A stretch of DNA of 53,717 bases from Planctomycetota bacterium (lineage in GTDB: Bacteria; Planctomycetota; Planctomycetia; Pirellulales; Pirellulaceae), in assembly GCA_026692905.1 (NCBI GenBank), contig JAPLNL010000063.1, positions 1 to 53,717 of the forward strand. Direction: 5' to 3'. Position numbers and translations under genes: made by a program. Below are positions 10,334 to 31,866 of this stretch, in pieces (positions within the stretch are counted from its first letter, which is position 1; each line of letters opens with the position of its first letter). The notes under the pieces were generated by a model. The model did not search any database. It had not been told where the DNA came from and saw only the letters and a program-made list of their open reading frames with translations.

Positions 10334-12271
10334 TTACAAAAAGGGAGCAGGAGTTGTTGGAGTTGTTGGTGTTGTTGTGGGTGTTGTCGTCTTTGGTACG
10401 GTCGTTGTAGGTGTGGTCGTTGTAGGAGTGGTCGTTGTAGGAGTGGTCGTTGTAGGTGTGGTCGTCGTAGGTGTGGTCGTCGTAGGTGTGGTCGTCGTAG
10501 GTGTGGTCGTCGTAGGTGTGGTCGTTTTAGGTACGGTCGTTGTAGGTGTAGTCGTTGTAGGTGTGGTCGTTGTAGGTGTGGTCGTTGTAGGTGTGGTCGT
10601 TGTAGGTGTGGTCGTTGTAGGTGTGGTCGTTTTAGGTACGGTCGTTGTAGGTGTGGTCGTTGTAGGTGTGGTCGTTGTAGGTGTGGTCGTTGTAGGAGTC
10701 GTCGTTTTAGGAACGGTCGTTGTAGTTGTAGTCGTTGTAGGAGTAGTAGTCGTCGTCGGCGTCGTTGATCCAGAGCCTGAACCTCCGCCACCACCGCCAG
10801 AAGCTACGGTTGTGCCACTTGTCGCTGTACCGCCGACCGTACCAGTTCCTGCTCCTACGCCAGAGCCTGTACCGGTTCCACTACCTGATCCGATACCAGA
10901 ACCACTCCCTGTCCCGATACCAGATCCCGTGCCAGATCCGATTCCGGTTCCGGTTCCAGTTCCAATTCCCGTTGATCCCGTGGCTGTGCCGGTGCCTGTG
11001 CCGGATCCACCACCTCCTCCACCCCCGACGCCTGTAGTTGTTCCCGCGGTCGTACTAGAGCCCGACCCAACAACCGATCCAGTGCCCGTGCCAACTCCAG
11101 ATCCGGTGCCTGTACCGACGCCAGATCCAGTACCGGTGCCAATACCTGTTCCCGTACCGCTCCCAGTTCCAGTGCTCGAGGTGGTCCCAGTCGGCGTCGT
11201 AGCTGTCGTCGTAGGAGTAGTCGTTGTAGGTGTGGTCGTTGTCGTCGTTTTAGGTGCGGTTGTTGTCGTCGTAGTCGTTGTAGGAGCGGTCGTTGTAGGT
11301 GTAGTCGTTGTAGGTGTAGTCGTTGTAGGTGTAGTCGTTGTAGGTGTAGTCGTTGTCGTCGTTTTAGGTGCGGTTGTTGTCGTCGTAGTCGTTGTCGTTG
11401 TAGGAGCGGTCGTTGTAGGCTGGGTCGTTGTAGGCTGGGTCGTTGTAGGTGTAGTCGTTGTAGGTGTAGTCGTTGTAGGTGTAGTCGTTGTAGGTGTAGT
11501 CGTTGTAGGTGTAGTCGTTGTAGGTGTAGTCGTTGTCGTCGTTTTAGGTACGGTCGTTGTAGTCGTAGTCGTTGTAGGAGTCGTCGTTGTAGGAGTCGTC
11601 GCTGTAGGAGTCGTCGTTGTTGGAGTGGTCGTTGTAGGAGTCGTCGTTTTAGGTACGGTCGTTGTAGTCGTAGTCGTTGTAGGAGTCGTTGTTGTAGGAG
11701 TCGTCGTTGTAGGTGTCGTCGTTGCAGGAGTGGTCGTTGTAGGTACAGTCGTTGTAGGTGTGGTCGTCGGGGTCGTTGTTGGAACAGTCGTCGTTGGCAC
11801 AACTACAGGGGGTGGCGGCAAACTGGCAACCGCGCTCACTTGAGATGCTGGGCCTCGTTCGGTGACCAACGTCGTATCTCCGCTGATCGTTAAGTTTTTT
11901 GAGAAGGCAGCGGAGGACCACAAATTGGTCGAAGCTGGTATGGAAACACTCACCTTGATGCTTTGGGTCGTTTCAAGGATCGGGTTGGGCTGAACCGTCA
12001 CCGTCGCCCCCGAGACCCCGCCGATCTTCATAATGTTATTCGCGATCGCTTGCGCTTCTGCAACCGTTGCACCAGGGACCATCGCAGCCCGCGCTGCTTC
12101 ATAGGAAGCGTTGTCCGCAATGTGCTTGATGATCTGCAACCGTGCAAACTCGATCCCTCCTAGAAAAAGGGCAAACACAATCGGCAGCATCAAAGCCATC
12201 TCCAAGGTGTGCGCACCTTGACGACGAAACTGCTCTCGAGTGACTGCCATACATTTCTTAACGAGGATCAT
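10334..12271 (-). CDS. TadE-like pseudopilin with very long Thr/Pro/Gly repeat tail
   Basis: The first ~140 residues are a TadE-type minor pseudopilin: a short basic leader, then [25 protein letters not shown] (processing-type Glu followed by a TM helix), [14 protein letters not shown] and a beta-rich region. The remaining ~490 residues are almost entirely PTTTT-type repeats broken by a Gly-Thr-Gly-Ser block (about residues 365-510) and occasional VPK or APK units. The tail is mucin-like, probably extracellular and possibly glycosylated. It is the last gene of a three-gene operon after a TadE and a VWA/TadG gene. An ATG at 12250 is an alternative start. The C-terminal length is likely unstable because the DNA repeats in 15-bp units. 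Confidence 0.8.
10386..11775. repeat. 15-bp tandem repeat arrays flanking a GC-rich dipeptide-repeat block
   Basis: Two arrays of the 15-bp unit gtcgttgtaggtgtg and close variants lie at about 10386-10760 and 11200-11775. They encode the PTTTT repeats of the minus-strand TadE-like protein. Between them, 10780-11165 encodes Gly-Thr/Gly-Ser dipeptides. The unit length is a multiple of three, so slippage changes length without breaking the frame. Confidence 0.93.
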
Positions 12272-25793: not shown

Positions 25794-27182
25794 AAAGGAC
25801 AGGCACAGCAATTCCGTGACTAACAAACTCGCATCCGTCAGCTTAGCCTACTTCCGATACTATCAACGGACGCCAGATGGGCTGCACATGAGGCGCTTCG
25901 CCGAGAAGTTGCGAATAAGAAGCCATTAGCTGATGCACAGCTCGCTAAGAAAAATGGCAATTGAAAGGCGGATATATTGGCTGCCCGAATGAAATAGGCA
26001 GCATCGACGCGAAGCACTCGCCCCCGCAGACTCGACTCCGCAGACTCGATCGAAATCGAACCCCAGCGGATCAACCTACATTGGCAAGATGCCGAACTTG
26101 CAACTTCCCTGCCAACTCACGCAACTTGTCCCGGGTCGCCGCAAGAAATCGACCCAGCAACCGGCCTCCTGCAAGCTTCGACATCCGAACTCCCCAAGTC
26201 TCCGGCGTGCAACCAAGCCTCGCAAAAACATCCGCAACCTCAGCCGAAATCGCCGCTTTACCATCACGCAACATCCGACCTGTGTACTCCACCAACATCA
26301 CATACTGCCCCAGCGTAAACCCACTCCGCATCCCTTCACGTACCGCACCAAGCCCTCTGCGATCCTCAACCGGAACCAGCCAAAGCTCATCTTCAAGCCC
26401 ACCACTAACCCGAACCGCCGCCACACTACCAAGCTCCGCCGCCTGCAAATCCTCGGCCCGACCGTTCGAAACGACATGATCCACCCGAGCCTTAATCGAA
26501 GTGTGCTCGCTAGCTTCCGGAGTCGCCGCAATCCCAGCCGCAACCGGATTTAGATCAATATAAGCACACACTGAAACAAGCGACTCTTCATCCAGAATCG
26601 TAATCGATTTGAAACGTCCCTCAAAGAAAGCACCCGTGCACTTGTCTTGCTTATTTGCAAGACGAGCCAAAGGCTCTTTGAGGCACTTCATAAACCAACC
26701 CAGCGACGACAATCGCTCACGCGCACCCGCCACCCACTCCATGTTGCCGACACGAGCCGCCACCAGCTCCTTGGAAACCTTCATCGGCTTGCGGTCCGAC
26801 CCACGAGGCGGAAACAGTCGAAACCAACGCTCAACCACTTCCGAATCCGACCAGCCATTGGCAACCTCAGGATCGATACGCAGCAGCAAGTGCAAATGGT
26901 TGTCCATCAGACTGAATCCGCCCACGGAAACAGCAAAGATCTGGTCAAGTTCCTTCAGTCGATTCTCGATCCAATCCTTACGCCCCGGAGCCGCTTCATC
27001 GCCCATGAGATGAGCCCGACGAACGCAACGAGAAATACAGTGATACCAACGACTTACGGTGGCATCAACCAGTCGAGAACGGGAGATAGTCATAGCAAGA
27101 CTCCTAAAAGAACAATCAAATCAATCCGCATATCTTACCAAATTCAACCCGCCCGACAATCGCTGTGCCTGTCCTGTCCTTT
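25794..27182. mobile_element. REP-associated tyrosine transposase (RAYT) element with short inverted ends
   Basis: The left end aaaggacaggcacagc (25794-25809) and the right end gctgtgcctgtcctgtccttt (27162-27182) are inverted copies; the right one has an extra 5-bp aggac duplication. They flank one IS200/HUH-type transposase gene. No target-site duplication was identified. The ORF on its right continues directly into the right end, consistent with insertion into a gene. Confidence 0.65.
26071..27093 (-). CDS. IS200-like (Y1/HUH) transposase, RAYT type
   Basis: A 340-residue protein with the REP-associated transposase layout: WYHCISRCVRRAHL at the start, the HUH-type metal motif in FSLMDNHLHLLLRI, a downstream catalytic-Tyr region around LVSVCAYIDLNPVAAGI, and FFEGRFKSI. 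The long C-terminal part (about 200-340) is typical of planctomycete and cyanobacterial members. It is expected to nick and join single-stranded DNA at the palindromic ends. The frame is intact, so it may be active. Confidence 0.85.
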   Translation of the reverse strand: MTISRSRLVDATVSRWYHCISRCVRRAHLMGDEAAPGRKDWIENRLKELDQIFAVSVGGFSLMDNHLHLLLRIDPEVANGWSDSEVVERWFRLFPPRGSDRKPMKVSKELVAARVGNMEWVAGARERLSSLGWFMKCLKEPLARLANKQDKCTGAFFEGRFKSITILDEESLVSVCAYIDLNPVAAGIAATPEASEHTSIKARVDHVVSNGRAEDLQAAELGSVAAVRVSGGLEDELWLVPVEDRRGLGAVREGMRSGFTLGQYVMLVEYTGRMLRDGKAAISAEVADVFARLGCTPETWGVRMSKLAGGRLLGRFLAATRDKLRELAGKLQVRHLANVG

Positions 27183-27305
27183 CTGTCTGTCTGAATCACA
27201 ATAGAATACATCAACCTCGTCGGTGTCGTCCATATCTCCAATGCGGCTCAATAGCCTTTGTTGATCTAGATCTGTGGAAGGAGGTTCGTAGGGATTTTTC
27301 GACAT
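27144..27305 (-). pseudogene. 5' fragment of an 'NPYEPP' membrane-protein gene, cut by the RAYT element
   Basis: The ATG at 27305 starts MSKNPYEPPSTDL, the hallmark opening of planctomycete small membrane proteins. Within 40 codons the frame runs into the RAYT right end (QKGQDRHS is encoded by the repeat) and stops. The hydrophobic body expected downstream is absent. Confidence 0.6.
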
Positions 27306-27319
27306 GTGTTTTCTAGTGC

Positions 27320-27409
27320 ACGAACGACCGACATCACCGAGGACGAGGCGTGAACTCAACGCAAGTTCGCGCGGTCGACCGAGTCCTTCGTGTGCATGTC
27401 ATTGTTCGT
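27320..27409. repeat. Long imperfect hairpin with attC-like architecture
   Basis: The left arm 27320-27344 (acgaac-gacc-gacat-caccgaggac) pairs with the right arm 27383-27409 (gtcc-ttcgtgtgc-atgtc-att-gttcgt). Outer and inner paired blocks are separated by short unpaired spacers, the general plan of integron attC sites. It sits exactly between two minus-strand genes. The outer boxes (GTTCGT/ACGAAC) do not fit the canonical GTTRRRY/RYYYAAC, so attC is a hypothesis only. Confidence 0.5.
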
Positions 27410-27422
27410 TAATTCCATTGTA

Positions 27423-28073
27423 CTATTTCGCCCATGGGACCCCACTTGGTAGTGGTTCCTTCGCTTTCTTCAGGATCTCGAGAGTTTCATGCAACCAATC
27501 AAGCTCGACAGAGGGGTACTTGGTTCTTTCCTTTGATTCCGCTTCGATCACCCACTCAAGAACTTCGATCTGCAACTGCAACAGTGTCTTGTTCTCTAGT
27601 GAGTTAATCCAATTCTGAGTTTTTTCTGGATCGCGGAGGTCTAGTTTTGAAAGATAATGAGGGCGCCTTGGGCGGTTGCGAGGATCTCCTTCGCCACGAG
27701 AGTAGGTCTTGTACGGTTGAAGCTGCAAATCAATTGCACTGAAGCAGAGCTGCCCAACTGTAAAGTTGACATCAGCAGCTCCGCCATCTGCCGTAAGGGA
27801 ATACCGCTTGTCATCAAGATGCGGAATGATAAATGGAAATGCTTTCGGGCCAAGTTCGCGCAGCTCACGATAAGCCAGGAAAACTTCCTCCTGGCCCGCT
27901 TTGTCGTATCCTCTTGGGTACAACGCGCTCGGACCACGAGTTTTGGGAGGTTTGTTCTTGGATGCAAGGCGAGCTACTAGGCTATCAACTGTCTCTTTGT
28001 CTACGGTTTCCTGAGCGCCACAAACGGAAGTGACTATCACGAACAACGTAATCAAGATAGCCGCGTATCTCAT
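27423..28073 (-). CDS. Exported protein of unknown function
   Basis: A 216-residue protein with a clear signal peptide (AAILITLFVIVTSVCGAQ). The mature part is helical and polar, with FLAYRELRELGPKAFPFIIPHLDDKRYS resembling one HEAT-like repeat, followed by VNFTVGQLCFSAID, which fits the same fold. No enzyme motif. It is framed by the attC-like hairpin on its 3' side and an inverted copy of the intergenic element on its 5' side, so it looks like a one-gene cassette. Confidence 0.72.
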   Translation of the reverse strand: MRYAAILITLFVIVTSVCGAQETVDKETVDSLVARLASKNKPPKTRGPSALYPRGYDKAGQEEVFLAYRELRELGPKAFPFIIPHLDDKRYSLTADGGAADVNFTVGQLCFSAIDLQLQPYKTYSRGEGDPRNRPRRPHYLSKLDLRDPEKTQNWINSLENKTLLQLQIEVLEWVIEAESKERTKYPSVELDWLHETLEILKKAKEPLPSGVPWAK

Positions 28074-28106
28074 CGAACACCTAAATTCAACGAACTATTA
28101 ATTCTC

Positions 28107-28164
28107 AGGCGCCCGCGCCTGTAAACGAAGTGTTATCGTACCGCATTTGGCTGGTCGAATGGGC
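28107..28164 (-). repeat. Intergenic element, copy E (inverted, partial)
   Basis: Reverse complement of 28138-28164 reads gcccattcgaccagccaaat then gcggtac, matching the 3' half of copies A-C. It is followed (minus strand) by the hairpin aggcgc-gg-gcgcct (28107-28120) and an attaat run, as in copy B. It lies directly upstream of the gene ending at 28073. Confidence 0.7.
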
Positions 28165-28710
28165 TGTGGGACAGGTTAATTTGCGACTCATCGTCTAAAA
28201 TGTAGAGGTGCTTCATTTCTAGAGAATTGTGCTTCCAAATAGCCTGTGAGGTCCAACTTTCGTAAGACGCTTGCCGCCAATCGGCTATGTCCACAGTGTG
28301 GGTGGGAAGCTTGCGGCCTAGGGAATAGGCTAGGTTGCTGGCTAGGCCGATCCTGCAGGAGTACGACGCTTTCAAAGTTGATGAGCTAGCCGTGAATCCA
28401 GCGCTCCAACCTGTGGAAATCAAAGAAGAGTGTCGGAAAGAATCGGACGCTTCATAACGCTGAGGTAGGATGTTCCAATCCCGTTCGAAAGGTTTGACGA
28501 GTGGTAGCGAACGAAGTCGAGCGAGCGCGCGGGGGAGAGCCTTAGGGTGCTTGTCGGAGCAGGTTCGACCGGAAACACGCCAACGTTGAATTGGCCAAAG
28601 CCCGGTCGTGAAAAAGCGTTTCTTGCGGTGCCGTTGTTGAAAGGGGTCAGTCTCATCCACAGATCGCGAGCCGGCTAAGTTTTCAAGCTCGGTTTTACCG
28701 ATACACGGTT
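28165..28710. other. Region without a convincing gene
   Basis: Overlapping minus-strand ORFs exist, but they lack family features, signal peptides or ribosome-binding sites, and the two frames compete. It may be decayed gene or repeat DNA between inverted copy E and copy A. Confidence 0.5.
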
Positions 28711-28854
28711 ACGGCGAACTCGCTACGGTTTGACACGCCGGTGCGGCCGTGTTCACGCGGCTCCAAGCCAATCATTCACTTCCGAGTAGCTCGACTGCCC
28801 ATTCAACCAACCAGATTGGGTACATTAAGAATGTGTTTACCGGCGGCTCGCCGG
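28711..28854 (+). repeat. Intergenic element, copy A
   Basis: Begins cggcgaactcgctacggttt and contains gacacgccgg, attcacttcc, gcccattcaaccaacc and gggtacatt, and ends with the hairpin ccggcg-gct-cgccgg (28840-28854). It shares order and spacing with copies B and C. It lies 98 nt before the next gene. Confidence 0.75.
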
Positions 28855-28952
28855 AAAACTACCAGTTCTGTCGAAAAGAAAGGAAGTCATTGCTGAATCC
28901 ATACGATTGTTCACGCTCGACGCTTGCAACCACCCCAAGGCCCGACGCGACC

Positions 28953-29288
28953 ATGCTTGTACCCCGGACATCTTTTTCGTTGGTCGTTGGGGTCACGGTA
29001 ACTGGGGCCTTGCTTACTGGCGTACTAATACTGCTTCAGTGGTTCGTGCTCGACTGGGTCAGTGTTCGAGTACTTCGATATCCTGAAGATTTAGGGAAAT
29101 ACGATTGGGCGTTTATTGGTTCACTAATCTTACCTCTCTTATTGCTTTCCGTCTTCAGTTGGATATCGCCGAGGCTTTGGACACTGAAACGCATTGTCGC
29201 AATGACGATTGTTGGATGGATTATCGCTGTCGTCTTGATTGCCACAATCGGCATTGGGTACCATTTCTGGATCGGAGGAACTTTGTAA
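28953..29288 (+). CDS. Small membrane protein
   Basis: A 111-residue protein with three predicted TM helices (about 10-32, 48-70 and 80-103), ending YHFWIGGTL. No family recognised. The ATG at 28953 was chosen as the first that precedes the hydrophobic region. The stop is 2 nt from the start of the next membrane-protein gene, so the two are probably translated together and may form a pair. Confidence 0.6.
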   Translation: MLVPRTSFSLVVGVTVTGALLTGVLILLQWFVLDWVSVRVLRYPEDLGKYDWAFIGSLILPLLLLSVFSWISPRLWTLKRIVAMTIVGWIIAVVLIATIGIGYHFWIGGTL

Positions 29289-29290
29289 CG

Positions 29291-29677
29291 ATGGAATCGA
29301 GCCACAAGCCCAAGTCTGACACAAAGAAATCCGGCAGAAACCCTGAATCACCGGCAAACCTGCCTAGTGTGCCGGAATCCAGAACCAACGGGCCCTACTA
29401 TTCGCCTGAATACAACGCAGCGTTTAAGACGGCGCTTTTGAATCAAACAGCGCTCGCGGTTATAACCTTGCTCGTTCTGGATTTCGGCCAAACCCATCGT
29501 GCATTCTGGATTGCGTTTCTTTGCCAATGGGCGATGGTCTGGATCATACTATTCCGACGTGCAATGCACCCCTCGTGGTTTGACCTAACACTCGTACGTT
29601 ACGGAATCGTTCCGCTACTGTTCATTGTTGCGATCGCAGGGCCTTGGTTCCTACATCTGCTCGGCGTGAGAACTTAA
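29291..29677 (+). CDS. Small membrane protein with polar N-terminal tail
   Basis: A 128-residue protein: a Ser/Pro/Lys-rich cytosolic tail (1-45), then hydrophobic segments at about 52-68, 70-86 and 101-122. No family recognised. The start at 29291 follows the previous stop by 2 nt. The pair resembles small-membrane-protein cassettes found in integron-like arrays, which is an inference from position only. Confidence 0.6.
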   Translation: MESSHKPKSDTKKSGRNPESPANLPSVPESRTNGPYYSPEYNAAFKTALLNQTALAVITLLVLDFGQTHRAFWIAFLCQWAMVWIILFRRAMHPSWFDLTLVRYGIVPLLFIVAIAGPWFLHLLGVRT

Positions 29678-29722
29678 GACGCGACGAACAACACGGTCTT
29701 TTGAAATTGGGATGTTACGGCA

Positions 29723-29941
29723 ATGAGCAAGACGATTCACGCTGTGTTCGAGAACGGTGTTTTTCGCCCGGTGGAATCTGTGGATCTACCGGAAAAGGCC
29801 GAGGTCGAATTTGAACCTAGACTGGTTGCAAAAAATGAAGGGTGGCCAGCGGGCTATTTTCAGCAGACTGCGGGCGCATTCGCGGGCGAAATCTTTGAGC
29901 GCCCAAATCAAGGCAAATTACCAGACCGGGACCAATGGTAA
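29723..29941 (+). CDS. AF2212/DUF104-like antitoxin
   Basis: A 72-residue protein whose start MSKTIHAVFENGVFRPVESVDLPEKAEVEFEP is the DUF104 (AF2212-like) signature of small VapB-type antitoxins. The stop codon overlaps the start of a PIN-toxin remnant (TAATG), the usual toxin-antitoxin coupling. With the toxin destroyed, the antitoxin is now an orphan. Confidence 0.8.
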   Translation: MSKTIHAVFENGVFRPVESVDLPEKAEVEFEPRLVAKNEGWPAGYFQQTAGAFAGEIFERPNQGKLPDRDQW

Positions 29942-30012
29942 TGCAGTACTTGCTCGATACGAACGCCTGGATCGTGAACTGCGGAGCAGTGTCATTTGAT
30001 AGCCACGGATGA
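29941..30012 (+). pseudogene. PIN-domain (VapC-like) toxin, only first ~15 codons left
   Basis: The ATG overlaps the antitoxin stop. MQYLLDTNAWIV is the classic start of a PIN toxin, with the first catalytic Asp. At about codon 18 the frame runs into a palindromic repeat (from about 30001) and stops at TGA inside the hairpin. The other acidic residues of the nuclease are absent. Confidence 0.72.
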
Positions 30013-30090
30013 AATCCGTGGAACGTATAACACCAACTCGGCGAGAGTCGCGTAGCGACGGCATTCCCACATAATGCGTAAGGAACACGC
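30001..30090. repeat. Two-hairpin dispersed repeat that truncates the toxin gene
   Basis: Hairpin 1: ccacggat-gaa-atccgtgg (30003-30021). Hairpin 2: gtcgc-gta-gcgac (30047-30059). This combination looks like a compact dispersed element. It replaces the rest of the VapC-like gene. The following stretch to 30300 has no recognisable gene. Confidence 0.65.
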
Positions 30091-30303
30091 CAAACAACAT
30101 CAAATGGAACGAATGGACCATCTCATTTAGGCATCACCGACAGAGGATGGTGCGATAGATGGCCGCTCACGCCGAATATCCCAACGAAATCCGGCCAAGT
30201 GCATTCCATACAAACAGAAAACGGCAAGCAAAAAACCTGGGGGCTACTCTCTCGAAAGAAAGCTTGGATCAGGGACGCAACAAACATAGGTAAGTTCGCC
30301 TAA

Positions 30304-30458
30304 CCGCCAACTCGCTCCGGTTTGTCACGCGTTTGACACGCCGGAGCGTCGATGTTTACTCGGCTTTCGTCCAAACATTCACTTCCAGTTGCTCGCCTGC
30401 CCATTCAGCCAGCCCAAGATGGGGTACATTTAGAGTGAATTTGCTGGCGCCGCGCCGG
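30304..30458 (+). repeat. Intergenic element, copy B
   Basis: Contains cgccaactcgctccggtttg, gtttgacacgccggagcgtc (the 8-bp stem cgctccgg/ccggagcg), aaacattcacttcc, gcccattcagccagcc, ggggtacattt and the terminal GC hairpin near 30444-30458. It ends 35 nt before the next start codon. Confidence 0.8.
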
Positions 30459-30493
30459 AGACTTATTAATTATTTGCTACGGGGAGATCGCCG

Positions 30494-31105
30494 ATGCGAC
30501 AACGGAGATTGAATCGAGTCGCCATCGCACTTGGCGTCACCTTTACGTTGGCTTGGGTTGCAGTTGCCCAACAGAAACCGATAGAGGTGCCGAAGCCGTC
30601 GGCTGTCTCAATACCAGCAAGACCCGAAGGCAAATACGAATTCGTCTCTTCAATGGTACAGGAAGAGCACGCTGATGGAATTCGGGAAAGAATTCCATTT
30701 GAATACATCGAATTGAAACAGTGGGGACAATTTGATCCTTTTACCCACCAACCAGGCGGCACTGAGTATCGGATTTTGCTTTGGCGGGACGGCAAGGCAG
30801 AGTACGAAGGAACTACAGGCGTAAAAATGATAGGACTACACCGAGGCAAAATCGGGATTGAAGAATATGGTAAGCTGGCACTATTGCTTGAGTTGTTTAA
30901 ATTTGATTCCGAAAAATGCGATGTTGGTTTTGAGGTGATGGTTTCTCACCCGGTGGTTGCCGCAATCAACGTCGGTTTTGACAAAAAAGACCCCATGACA
31001 AGACGAAATGCAAATGGGTTCGGCGACTATCGATTTTGGTTAATACAGTCTGCGATCGAGAATGTGGCCAATACAGTCACTTGGAAACCCGACGGAAGCA
31101 AATAA
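30494..31105 (+). CDS. Exported protein of unknown function
   Basis: A 203-residue protein with a signal peptide (RVAIALGVTFTLAWVAVAQ), a Pro-rich linker and a compact mixed alpha/beta region (KYEFVSSMVQEEHADG, YRILLWRDGKAEYEGTTG, KLALLLELFKFD, FWLIQSAIENVANTVTW). No catalytic motif or family recognised. A GGGGAGA ribosome-binding site lies in front of the ATG. It is delimited by copies B and C of the intergenic element. Confidence 0.72.
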   Translation: MRQRRLNRVAIALGVTFTLAWVAVAQQKPIEVPKPSAVSIPARPEGKYEFVSSMVQEEHADGIRERIPFEYIELKQWGQFDPFTHQPGGTEYRILLWRDGKAEYEGTTGVKMIGLHRGKIGIEEYGKLALLLELFKFDSEKCDVGFEVMVSHPVVAAINVGFDKKDPMTRRNANGFGDYRFWLIQSAIENVANTVTWKPDGSK

Positions 31106-31272
31106 ATCGGGTAAGCATTCCCGTTACCGGGCACCCTCCCACACCATCGTCCAACTCGCTCCGGTTTGACACGCGTTTGACACGCCGGAGCGTCAATGTG
31201 TGCATAGCTCCCCGCCAAACAGTCAATTCCAAGTGACTCCCCTGCCCATTCAACTAGGCAGATGCGGTACAT
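31106..31272 (+). repeat. Intergenic element, copy C
   Basis: Starts at the base after the preceding stop codon with atcgggtaagcattcccgtt and accgggcaccctcccaca. It continues gtccaactcgctccggtttg, gacacgccggagcgtc, gcccattcaactaggc and gcggtacat, then switches abruptly into hydrolase coding sequence at 31273. The terminal GC hairpin of copies A, B and E is missing. Confidence 0.8.
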
Positions 31273-31776
31273 TTCGACTACCGAGGATACGGACGAAGCG
31301 AAGGTACGCCAACCGTTGAAGGCGTAATGAAGGATGCCGCGGCTGCTCGTGCAAAGCTATGCGAACTCGCAAATATCAAAGATTCGGAAATGCTTTTGAT
31401 GGGTGAATCTCTTGGTGGTGCAATCGTCGTTCAATTGGCGGCCGACTCGCCTCCGCGAGGCCTGATCCTTCAAAGCACTTTCTCGTCTCTTCGCGACGTT
31501 GCTGACGTCCACTATCCGAAACTATCGTGGCTAGTTCCTGTAAAGAAACTTGATTCGGTGGCGCAGATTGCGCGTTATCGCGGCCCATTGCTCCAAAGTC
31601 ACGGAAGCGTGGATCAAACGATTCCATTCCCCTCGGGCGAAAAGCTATTCCGGGCGGCGAACGAACCAAAACAATTCATTACAATTGATCATGCTGATCA
31701 CAACAATTGGCTCACCGACGCGTACCTAAAACAACTTGAAGGATTCGTCACACGCGTTGCCGCTGCCAAGAAATGA
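31273..31776 (+). pseudogene. Alpha/beta hydrolase lacking its N-terminal part
   Basis: In-frame coding sequence starts at 31273 with FDYRGYGRSEGTPTVEGV, a typical alpha/beta-hydrolase segment, directly at the end of repeat copy C. An internal ATG at 31327 would give 149 residues with the nucleophile elbow MGESLGGA, LILQSTFSSL, LLQSHGSVDQTIPF (acid) and IDHADHNN (His). The first ~80-100 residues of the family, with the oxyanion strand, are missing. The triad is present, but a correctly folded enzyme is unlikely. Confidence 0.7.
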
Positions 31777-31782
31777 CCAATG

Positions 31783-31866
31783 AAATCGGGTATGGATGCC
31801 CGTTGCCGGGCACCCTTTCCCACAACTGCCCAACTCGCTCCGGTTTGACACGCCGGTGCGTCGAGG
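31783..31866 (+). repeat. Intergenic element, copy D (5' part)
   Basis: Starts 6 nt after the hydrolase stop: aaatcgggtatggatgcccg (perfect hairpin tgcccg-ttgc-cgggca), then gcccaactcgctccggtttg and acacgccggtgcgtcgag. The 3' half of the element is absent. Confidence 0.78.

Follow-up and report, generated by a model that had tools for sequence, protein, structure and literature searches.

The window analysed here is the whole of a complete contig (C63; JAPLNL010000063.1, assembly GCA_026692905.1) of 53,717 nucleotides (nt) from a Planctomycetota bacterium of the family Pirellulaceae, and it holds a row of small genes with copies of one non-coding repeat between them. Our favoured reading, to which we give a probability of roughly 0.55, is that this row is a decayed integron cassette array without an integrase, in which a non-autonomous, group II intron-associated repeat has overwritten the recombination sites (attC). 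On this reading, the attC has given way to the dispersed non-coding repeat at five of the six cassette junctions in the window. The genome to which the window belongs (G000; 5.96 Mb in 148 contigs, 96% complete) was studied within a set of 27 genomes of the genus. The comparison is one between species; genomes, contigs and loci are designated by G, C and L codes, respectively.

On the cassette-sense strand, a complete repeat consists of a left tail followed by a 152-nt core (CAAC...GTT), and we call the two together a composite. Judged by their sequence, the compared genes are integron cassettes, since they are shared between genomes as units bounded by the integron crossover point (G|TT) and exchanged singly. 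Of 177 matches beyond the repeat, a number that counts the self-matches of one window gene, 11 and 9 were examined closely, and 18 boundary comparisons, not equally clean, were made in total. In all five comparisons of an intact core 3' end at one locus with a model-located attC at the other (L255, L258, L219, L224, and L242), the shared sequence starts 0, 3, 1, 0, and 1 nt from the G of R', the R' box itself being altered in L219 and L258. At the opposite edge, four comparisons (L225, L232, L221, and L258) show the attC version and the composite version diverging no more than 3 nt from the AAC of R''; three of these four attCs were located by the model, while that of L258 was read by eye and not found by the model. 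Because the edges part at the AAC of R'' and resume at R', the repeat with its tail takes up, where compared, the R''-to-R' stretch that is an attC in the other genome. Five further comparisons, with a core 3' end in front, lay outside the model search for an opposite attC, and here homology begins later, about 4 (L218), 11 (L217), 16 (L243), 20 (L244), and 35 nt (L232) after the G of GTT, with identities of 89%, 90%, 76%, 71%, and 69%, respectively. The other 8 of the 18 involved a truncated core, a gene standing second in its gap, a locus end, no near core, or a match that was the repeat itself. In the pair L019/L131, homology begins 4 nt before the GTT position.

Within the window, the cassette unit 27320-28095 (gene 1, 216 aa, 27423-28073, minus strand, no Pfam or NCBIfam match) is also present in G008 with 88% identity, from the GTT after repeat copy E to the R' of its attC. 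It is preceded by copy E here and by an attC in G008, and homology begins at the GTT in both. The gene after copy B (30494-31105, plus strand, 203 aa, similarity to DUF6438 below the curated cut-off) has an 84% match in G006, where it stands behind an attC, and three genes of the arrays in the sibling genome G021 were found behind attCs in G002, G016, and G012. These five genes are the ones that gave the offsets of 0-3 nt from the G of R'. One gene was encountered in three states, namely with a composite of family g24 in G021, with an attC in G012, and with a g3 tail (assigned by resemblance) in G023.

One genuine attC is left in the window, at 27319-27410 on the minus strand (R''=GAAC, R'=CGTT). 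The first-pass annotation had described it as a long attC-like hairpin (27320-27409) different in kind from the other intergenic elements, and rightly so: a covariance model built from 12 other attCs with this site left out (model R2, genus-specific and not that of IntegronFinder) gave it 81.3 bits (E = 1.2e-23, filters off), and we therefore take the hairpin for a real attC. The 13 classical attCs of ~92 nt that were gathered by their loop motif, 7 of them on contigs with an integrase, covary strongly (10 of 22 pairs changed on both sides). The attC model had matches in all 27 genus genomes, with at least 143 in G002, at least 64 in G021, and at least 4 in the own genome; these are lower bounds, up to 150 candidates having been scored per genome (150 of 4037 in the own genome). 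An attC model for Planctomycetes is reported in PMC8352920. Integron integrases over the TIGR02249 cut-off were found in 14 of the 27 genomes, and the 96% complete own genome had no IntI match over this cut-off, in keeping with the missing integrase of the first proposal; by this measure, the own genome does not have a complete integron. A cluster of attC sites lacking integron integrases (CALIN) requires, by definition, two or more attC sites on an element that carries no integrase, and the 53.7-kb contig, with one attC, falls short of this. The general view of the locus as an integron cassette array without an integrase was upheld by units common to several genomes with crossover edges, by a true attC, and by the lack of an IntI match over the cut-off. 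An integron integrase gene was also seen beside an attC on contig C416 of G021 (L113), without any array repeat; the same locus has a region with a direct repeat of 125 nt (98%) at its two ends, which was read as IS91-like.

The copies in the window, designated A to E, are copies or pieces of the one repeat, and their core coordinates were placed by nhmmer with a core profile built from 57 complete G021 copies. Copy A (28717-28867, plus strand) is a complete core (E = 8.9e-42). Copy B (30256-30471, plus strand) has a left tail of the g51 type and a complete core (30308-30471, E = 1e-36), which is a variant with an 11-nt internal duplication; its tail plus core has a 75% match to a copy in L098. 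Copy C (31101-31279, plus strand) has a short, partly deleted tail of the g24 type and core positions 1-117 (31152-31279), being right-truncated, and copy D (31780-31866, plus strand) has a short tail of the g24 type and core positions 1-36 (31831-31866). Left tails are present on B, C, and D, and the tail class of the short copies C and D was assigned by resemblance to longer g24 tails. Copy E (28093-28173, minus strand) corresponds to the 3' part of the core (positions 73-152; score 42.9, E = 3.6e-12) and ends at the GTT where cassette 1 begins. The five copies had been correctly placed at the outset, with ends off by up to ~14 nt and with spans for C and D that proved to be tail plus core.

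That A-D and E are copies of one repeat was confirmed by the profile, by BLAST, and by pattern counts against a reversed control. A BLAST search with copy B recovered 18 sequences in the own genome at E ≤ 1e-3, copy B itself among them, and a 23-nt core pattern with up to 3 mismatches had 17 matches in the own genome and 120 in G021, and was found in 16 of the 27 genus genomes, versus 0 matches of the reversed pattern in all 27. The family is therefore not a product of chance, and the own genome holds about 20 copies. In a genome collection, all 46 stretches with the exact core were planctomycete records (near relatives of the window may be missing there), and the siblings carrying it are recorded as Pirellula sp., Planctomycetaceae, or Planctomycetota bacterium; the exact core was not found in viral contigs. 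The core edges are well kept in the 57 G021 copies, with frequencies of 0.91 and 0.96 for the two A of the 5' AAC, and of 0.93, 0.86, and 0.93 for the 3' GTT, the latter biased upwards because the copies were picked by fuzzy match to the core and end strings and the end string contains GTT. Divergence among cores is star-like (mean pairwise identity 75.7% vs. 73.3% expected from identity to the consensus, 24 chosen copies), which gives the look of a repeat copied from one master and then decaying. A known RNA family was rejected as an identity for the core, Rfam giving two matches to a single miRNA family (E = 0.19 and 0.27) and nothing else.

The arrays consist of cores at gene-sized intervals. 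The 56 gaps measured from a core end to the next core start span 372-1726 nt, and the copies of the window indeed start near stop codons and end before start codons, as had been noticed. The description of single genes between the copies was right in part and fails for the A-B gap, which holds three open reading frames (ORFs) and a second repeat. Besides the four cores A-D and the inverted E of the window, the own-genome contigs C116 and C40 have four same-orientation cores each, C116 with a short piece in addition. In G021, 16 copies or pieces lie on a contig of 12.7 kb and 14 on one of 13.5 kb, each set in a single orientation. Orientation is uniform in the large G021 arrays L098 and L100 and mixed in the window, C55, L105, and L110, where copies lie on both strands.

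The copies A-E had also been likened to the repeats of an integron cassette array, and their reading as attCs was rejected. The covariance search that recovered the long hairpin gave no match over A-E at E ≤ 10, even with filters off. On the bottom strand, pairing of the ends (R''/L'' with L'/R', at least 4 expected end-to-end pairs) was found in 1 of 24 chosen complete cores, as against 13 of 13 attCs and 14% of shuffled cores. Of the pairs predicted for the core, 1 of 11 had changed on both sides, and a scan of all pairs for compensatory changes in the 57 cores yielded scattered, mutually incompatible pairs and no helix. Complementarity between cassette heads and tails, as a sign of R''/R' pairing, was not above shuffling. 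None of the 15 attC matches obtained with a first model (E ≤ 1) in 20 array loci (214,707 bases) lay on a core, one of them, in L101, abutting a core start. What the core shares with attCs is its edges, AAC at the 5' end and GTT at the 3' end.

Many cores have a left tail, and one class of these tails points to group II introns. The 134 deduplicated left flanks comprised recurrent classes and 39 singletons, and we grouped 16, 13, and 12 chosen flanks into the composite families g24, g51, and g3, all of which share one core. In the g24 class, the tail is a group II intron 3' end (domains V-VI) in antisense. A query with the 3'-terminal 90 nt of an intron remnant that bears a maturase in G002, run against the array loci (458,719 bases), had 10 matches at E ≤ 0.05 (best 4.4e-8), of which the 9 best lie antisense to a core, 6-157 nt to its left (5'), and the tenth has no core nearby; the reversed database gave none. 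With the G006 intron as query, two weak hits were obtained, each next to a core (E = 0.011 and 0.028). Antisense domains V-VI at R'' were found for g24 tails only, the tail being located at R'' in L221 and L258. According to PMC7923331, the bottom strand of the attC is where group IIC-attC introns insert, at R'' (TTGT/T) and in the orientation opposite to that of the cassettes, CALINs included, and the orientation and site of the g24 tail agree with what is reported there. A group II intron in G002, antisense and apparently truncated at its 5' end, retains the remains of a maturase; it lies ~0.5 kb downstream of a core piece and is plausibly an intermediate. The one-contig genome G006 (C1, L209-L213) has 11 equal-scoring group II intron copies with a 465-aa maturase frame; this intron (~1.94 kb, 5 copies compared) stands after hairpin plus T-run sequences and is recognised by Rfam.

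Based on these observations, we infer an attC origin for every cored junction, and the core may have spread as follows. Group II machinery of the attC-targeting class IIC would place an RNA consisting of core plus tail at the attC bottom strand, presumably by target-primed reverse transcription, and the attC hairpin would be lost upon placement. The element would thus be a non-autonomous derivative of a group II intron, similar in kind to a short interspersed nuclear element (SINE). The composites would afterwards decay and truncate, and at copy C the start of the next gene would have been lost as well. Junctions with a core would be expected to be of no further use to an integrase, in line with none being found here. 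This scheme predicts 5' truncation of the copied RNA and hence an excess of right-truncated cores, and 41 right-truncated cores were found versus 9 left-truncated ones (10 at contig edges dropped). More tentatively, the composites might be the bacterial counterpart of SINEs, that is, short non-coding RNAs with a shared body and interchangeable group II 3' tails, which the reverse transcriptases of introns would copy in trans into attC hairpins, thereby erasing the sites and freezing the array.

Several results weigh against this favoured explanation. The asymmetry of truncation is perhaps a detection bias, because it shrinks to 14 right versus 8 left when at least 60 nt are kept. Nothing in the full G006 group II intron matches the core significantly, and the core does not show GUGYG, the intron 5' end given in PMC7923331, so it is not simply a part of an intron; the G006 intron was rejected as its source for want of a match. 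The group II models of Rfam find the G006 intron and find no tails in 7 array loci, and they also miss the G002 remnant. In the same 7 loci, the models for D1-D4 gave no match while the control intron was found, so that neither an intron 5' end nor domain I was located. Only the g24 tail is formally matched to an intron, g51 being linked to one by resemblance and g3 having no assigned origin, and G021, the genome richest in copies, has no match to the GIIM maturase family. In a fifth comparison on the R'' side (L244), homology ends ~10 nt before R''. Finally, an intron inserting in the normal way should leave the attC hairpin next to it, and the scheme does not account for the loss of the hairpin.

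Four other explanations were weighed, the first two of them being the main rivals. The core might be the worn body of a single attC that was joined to many genes via homologous recombination between introns, which later shrank to tails; recombination between group II introns has been put forward as a route of cassette birth (PMC7923331). This idea predicts the order gene, antisense intron tail, core, and GTT, which is the order found, and it accounts for a core that starts with AAC and ends with GTT at R'. Nevertheless, such recombination should carry along the sequence after the core, yet different cassettes follow the cores, and the core has no attC fold and little covariation. We therefore consider it unlikely.

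A second explanation, that the core is a DNA-type miniature element, either a miniature inverted-repeat transposable element or a repetitive extragenic palindrome (REP), moved by a transposase, seems improbable to us. The core is small, hairpin-rich, and present in many copies, and a candidate mover lies beside the array, namely the gene at 26071-27093 (minus strand) for a REP-associated tyrosine (RAYT-like) Y1 transposase, which is over the Pfam cut-off and below that of NCBIfam. Copies of this gene occur in C116 and C40 of the own genome and in G021, G002, and G015, some of them within ~3 kb of arrays (G000 C40 and G021 C70). However, CTGTGCCTGTCCT marks the end of three RAYT-like copies (L252, L253, and L267), and the matching AAAAGGACAGGCACAG the start of one (L254). 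This signature is unrelated to the core, and the other RAYT-like copies compared end elsewhere. The neighbouring gene was accordingly rejected as the mover, since the visible ends of its copies carry another signature.

It is more doubtful still that the core, with its tail, is a non-canonical site used by an integrase to this day, in a second kind of cassette system. Where compared, the repeat does stand between R'' and R' in lieu of the attC, and units fronted by a core recur in two G021 arrays or in G021 and G023. On the other hand, the failure of the unfiltered attC model, the end pairing that is no better than in shuffled cores, and the lack of excess complementarity between the head and tail of a cassette all speak against it, as do the lack of an IntI match over the cut-off in the own genome and the 15 integrase loci (contig pieces of 3.6-12 kb), in none of which a core lies beside the integrase. 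As to a repeat retained for regulation, acting as terminator plus promoter and so allowing otherwise silent cassettes to be expressed, its position between a stop and the next start, its hairpins, and a TTGACA hexamer in a loop of the consensus are suggestive, but the many truncated copies, the star-like decay, and the single compensatory change among 11 predicted pairs argue against selection and make this hardly credible.

The remaining genes of the array lie on the plus strand. The A-B gap contains two ORFs (28953-29288 and 29291-29677, with internal ATG starts read from the sequence), whose enclosing frames (28749-29288 and 29105-29677) had no match in the family scans. They are followed by a small antitoxin-type AF2212-like gene (29723-29941; PF01954, E = 1.5e-10) and by the first codons of a partner ORF. 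The segment 29714-29976 matches G005 and G002, and similarity to G005 stops at 29976. The second dispersed repeat (29977-30109, plus strand, ~133 nt) lies where the partner ORF loses its similarity to G005, and 84-86% identical copies of it are present in C15 of the own genome and in five G021 contigs. The last cassette gene is the remnant of an alpha/beta-hydrolase gene (31327-31776; PF12146, E = 5.9e-8), which is without its 5' part where the truncated copy C joins it, and a match in G016 spans 31273-31780. Elsewhere, a recurring module (TTTGGGTAACNGGAGCG...; L023/L132) is 95% identical between C15 of the own genome and C160 of G021 and ends inside the first hairpin of a core. The window also has an internally repetitive segment at 10353-11797 with many self matches of 70-87%, apparently a repeat-rich gene.

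The origin of integrase-less arrays is hard to see, and in this genus the overwriting of attCs can be read cassette by cassette, because siblings keep the same genes with intact attCs. If the favoured reading holds, it describes a direct route from mobile cassette to fixed gene, and functional tails would point to high-copy, non-autonomous derivatives of group II introns in a bacterium. Moreover, in genomes like these, searches with attC models can overlook many cassette junctions. Arrays of cassettes without an integrase and introns that target attCs are both known already. In the open PMC literature searched by title and abstract start, and in the excerpts available of PMC7923331, PMC8352920, and PMC3053210, we found no description of attCs being replaced from R'' to R' by a repeat of high copy number whose tails are interchangeable.

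Compared with known systems, the array resembles CALIN arrays in its mobile genes edged at the G|TT crossover, its true attC, and the lack of IntI over the cut-off in the genome, and differs from them in that a single attC is left in the window, the other junctions holding a repeat that is not an attC. The composites resemble group IIC-attC introns in lying antisense to cassettes, at the R'' of attCs and within arrays, and in the domain V-VI-type 3' end of the g24 tails. In contrast to these introns, the repeat has no ORF, no intron 5' end was found, its copy number is very high, and a foreign 152-nt core replaces the intron body and the attC hairpin. Insertion sequences of the IS1111-attC group are likewise mobile DNA that targets attC sites; here, however, no transposase was seen, and the attC is replaced and not merely interrupted. 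By analogy only, a parallel in form may be seen in the eukaryotic CORE-SINEs, in which a shared body is joined to different 3' tails borrowed from autonomous retroelements. The present repeat is bacterial, one of its tails is formally tied to an intron, and its mobilisation is putative, but it has the same architecture of one body with differing 3' tails.

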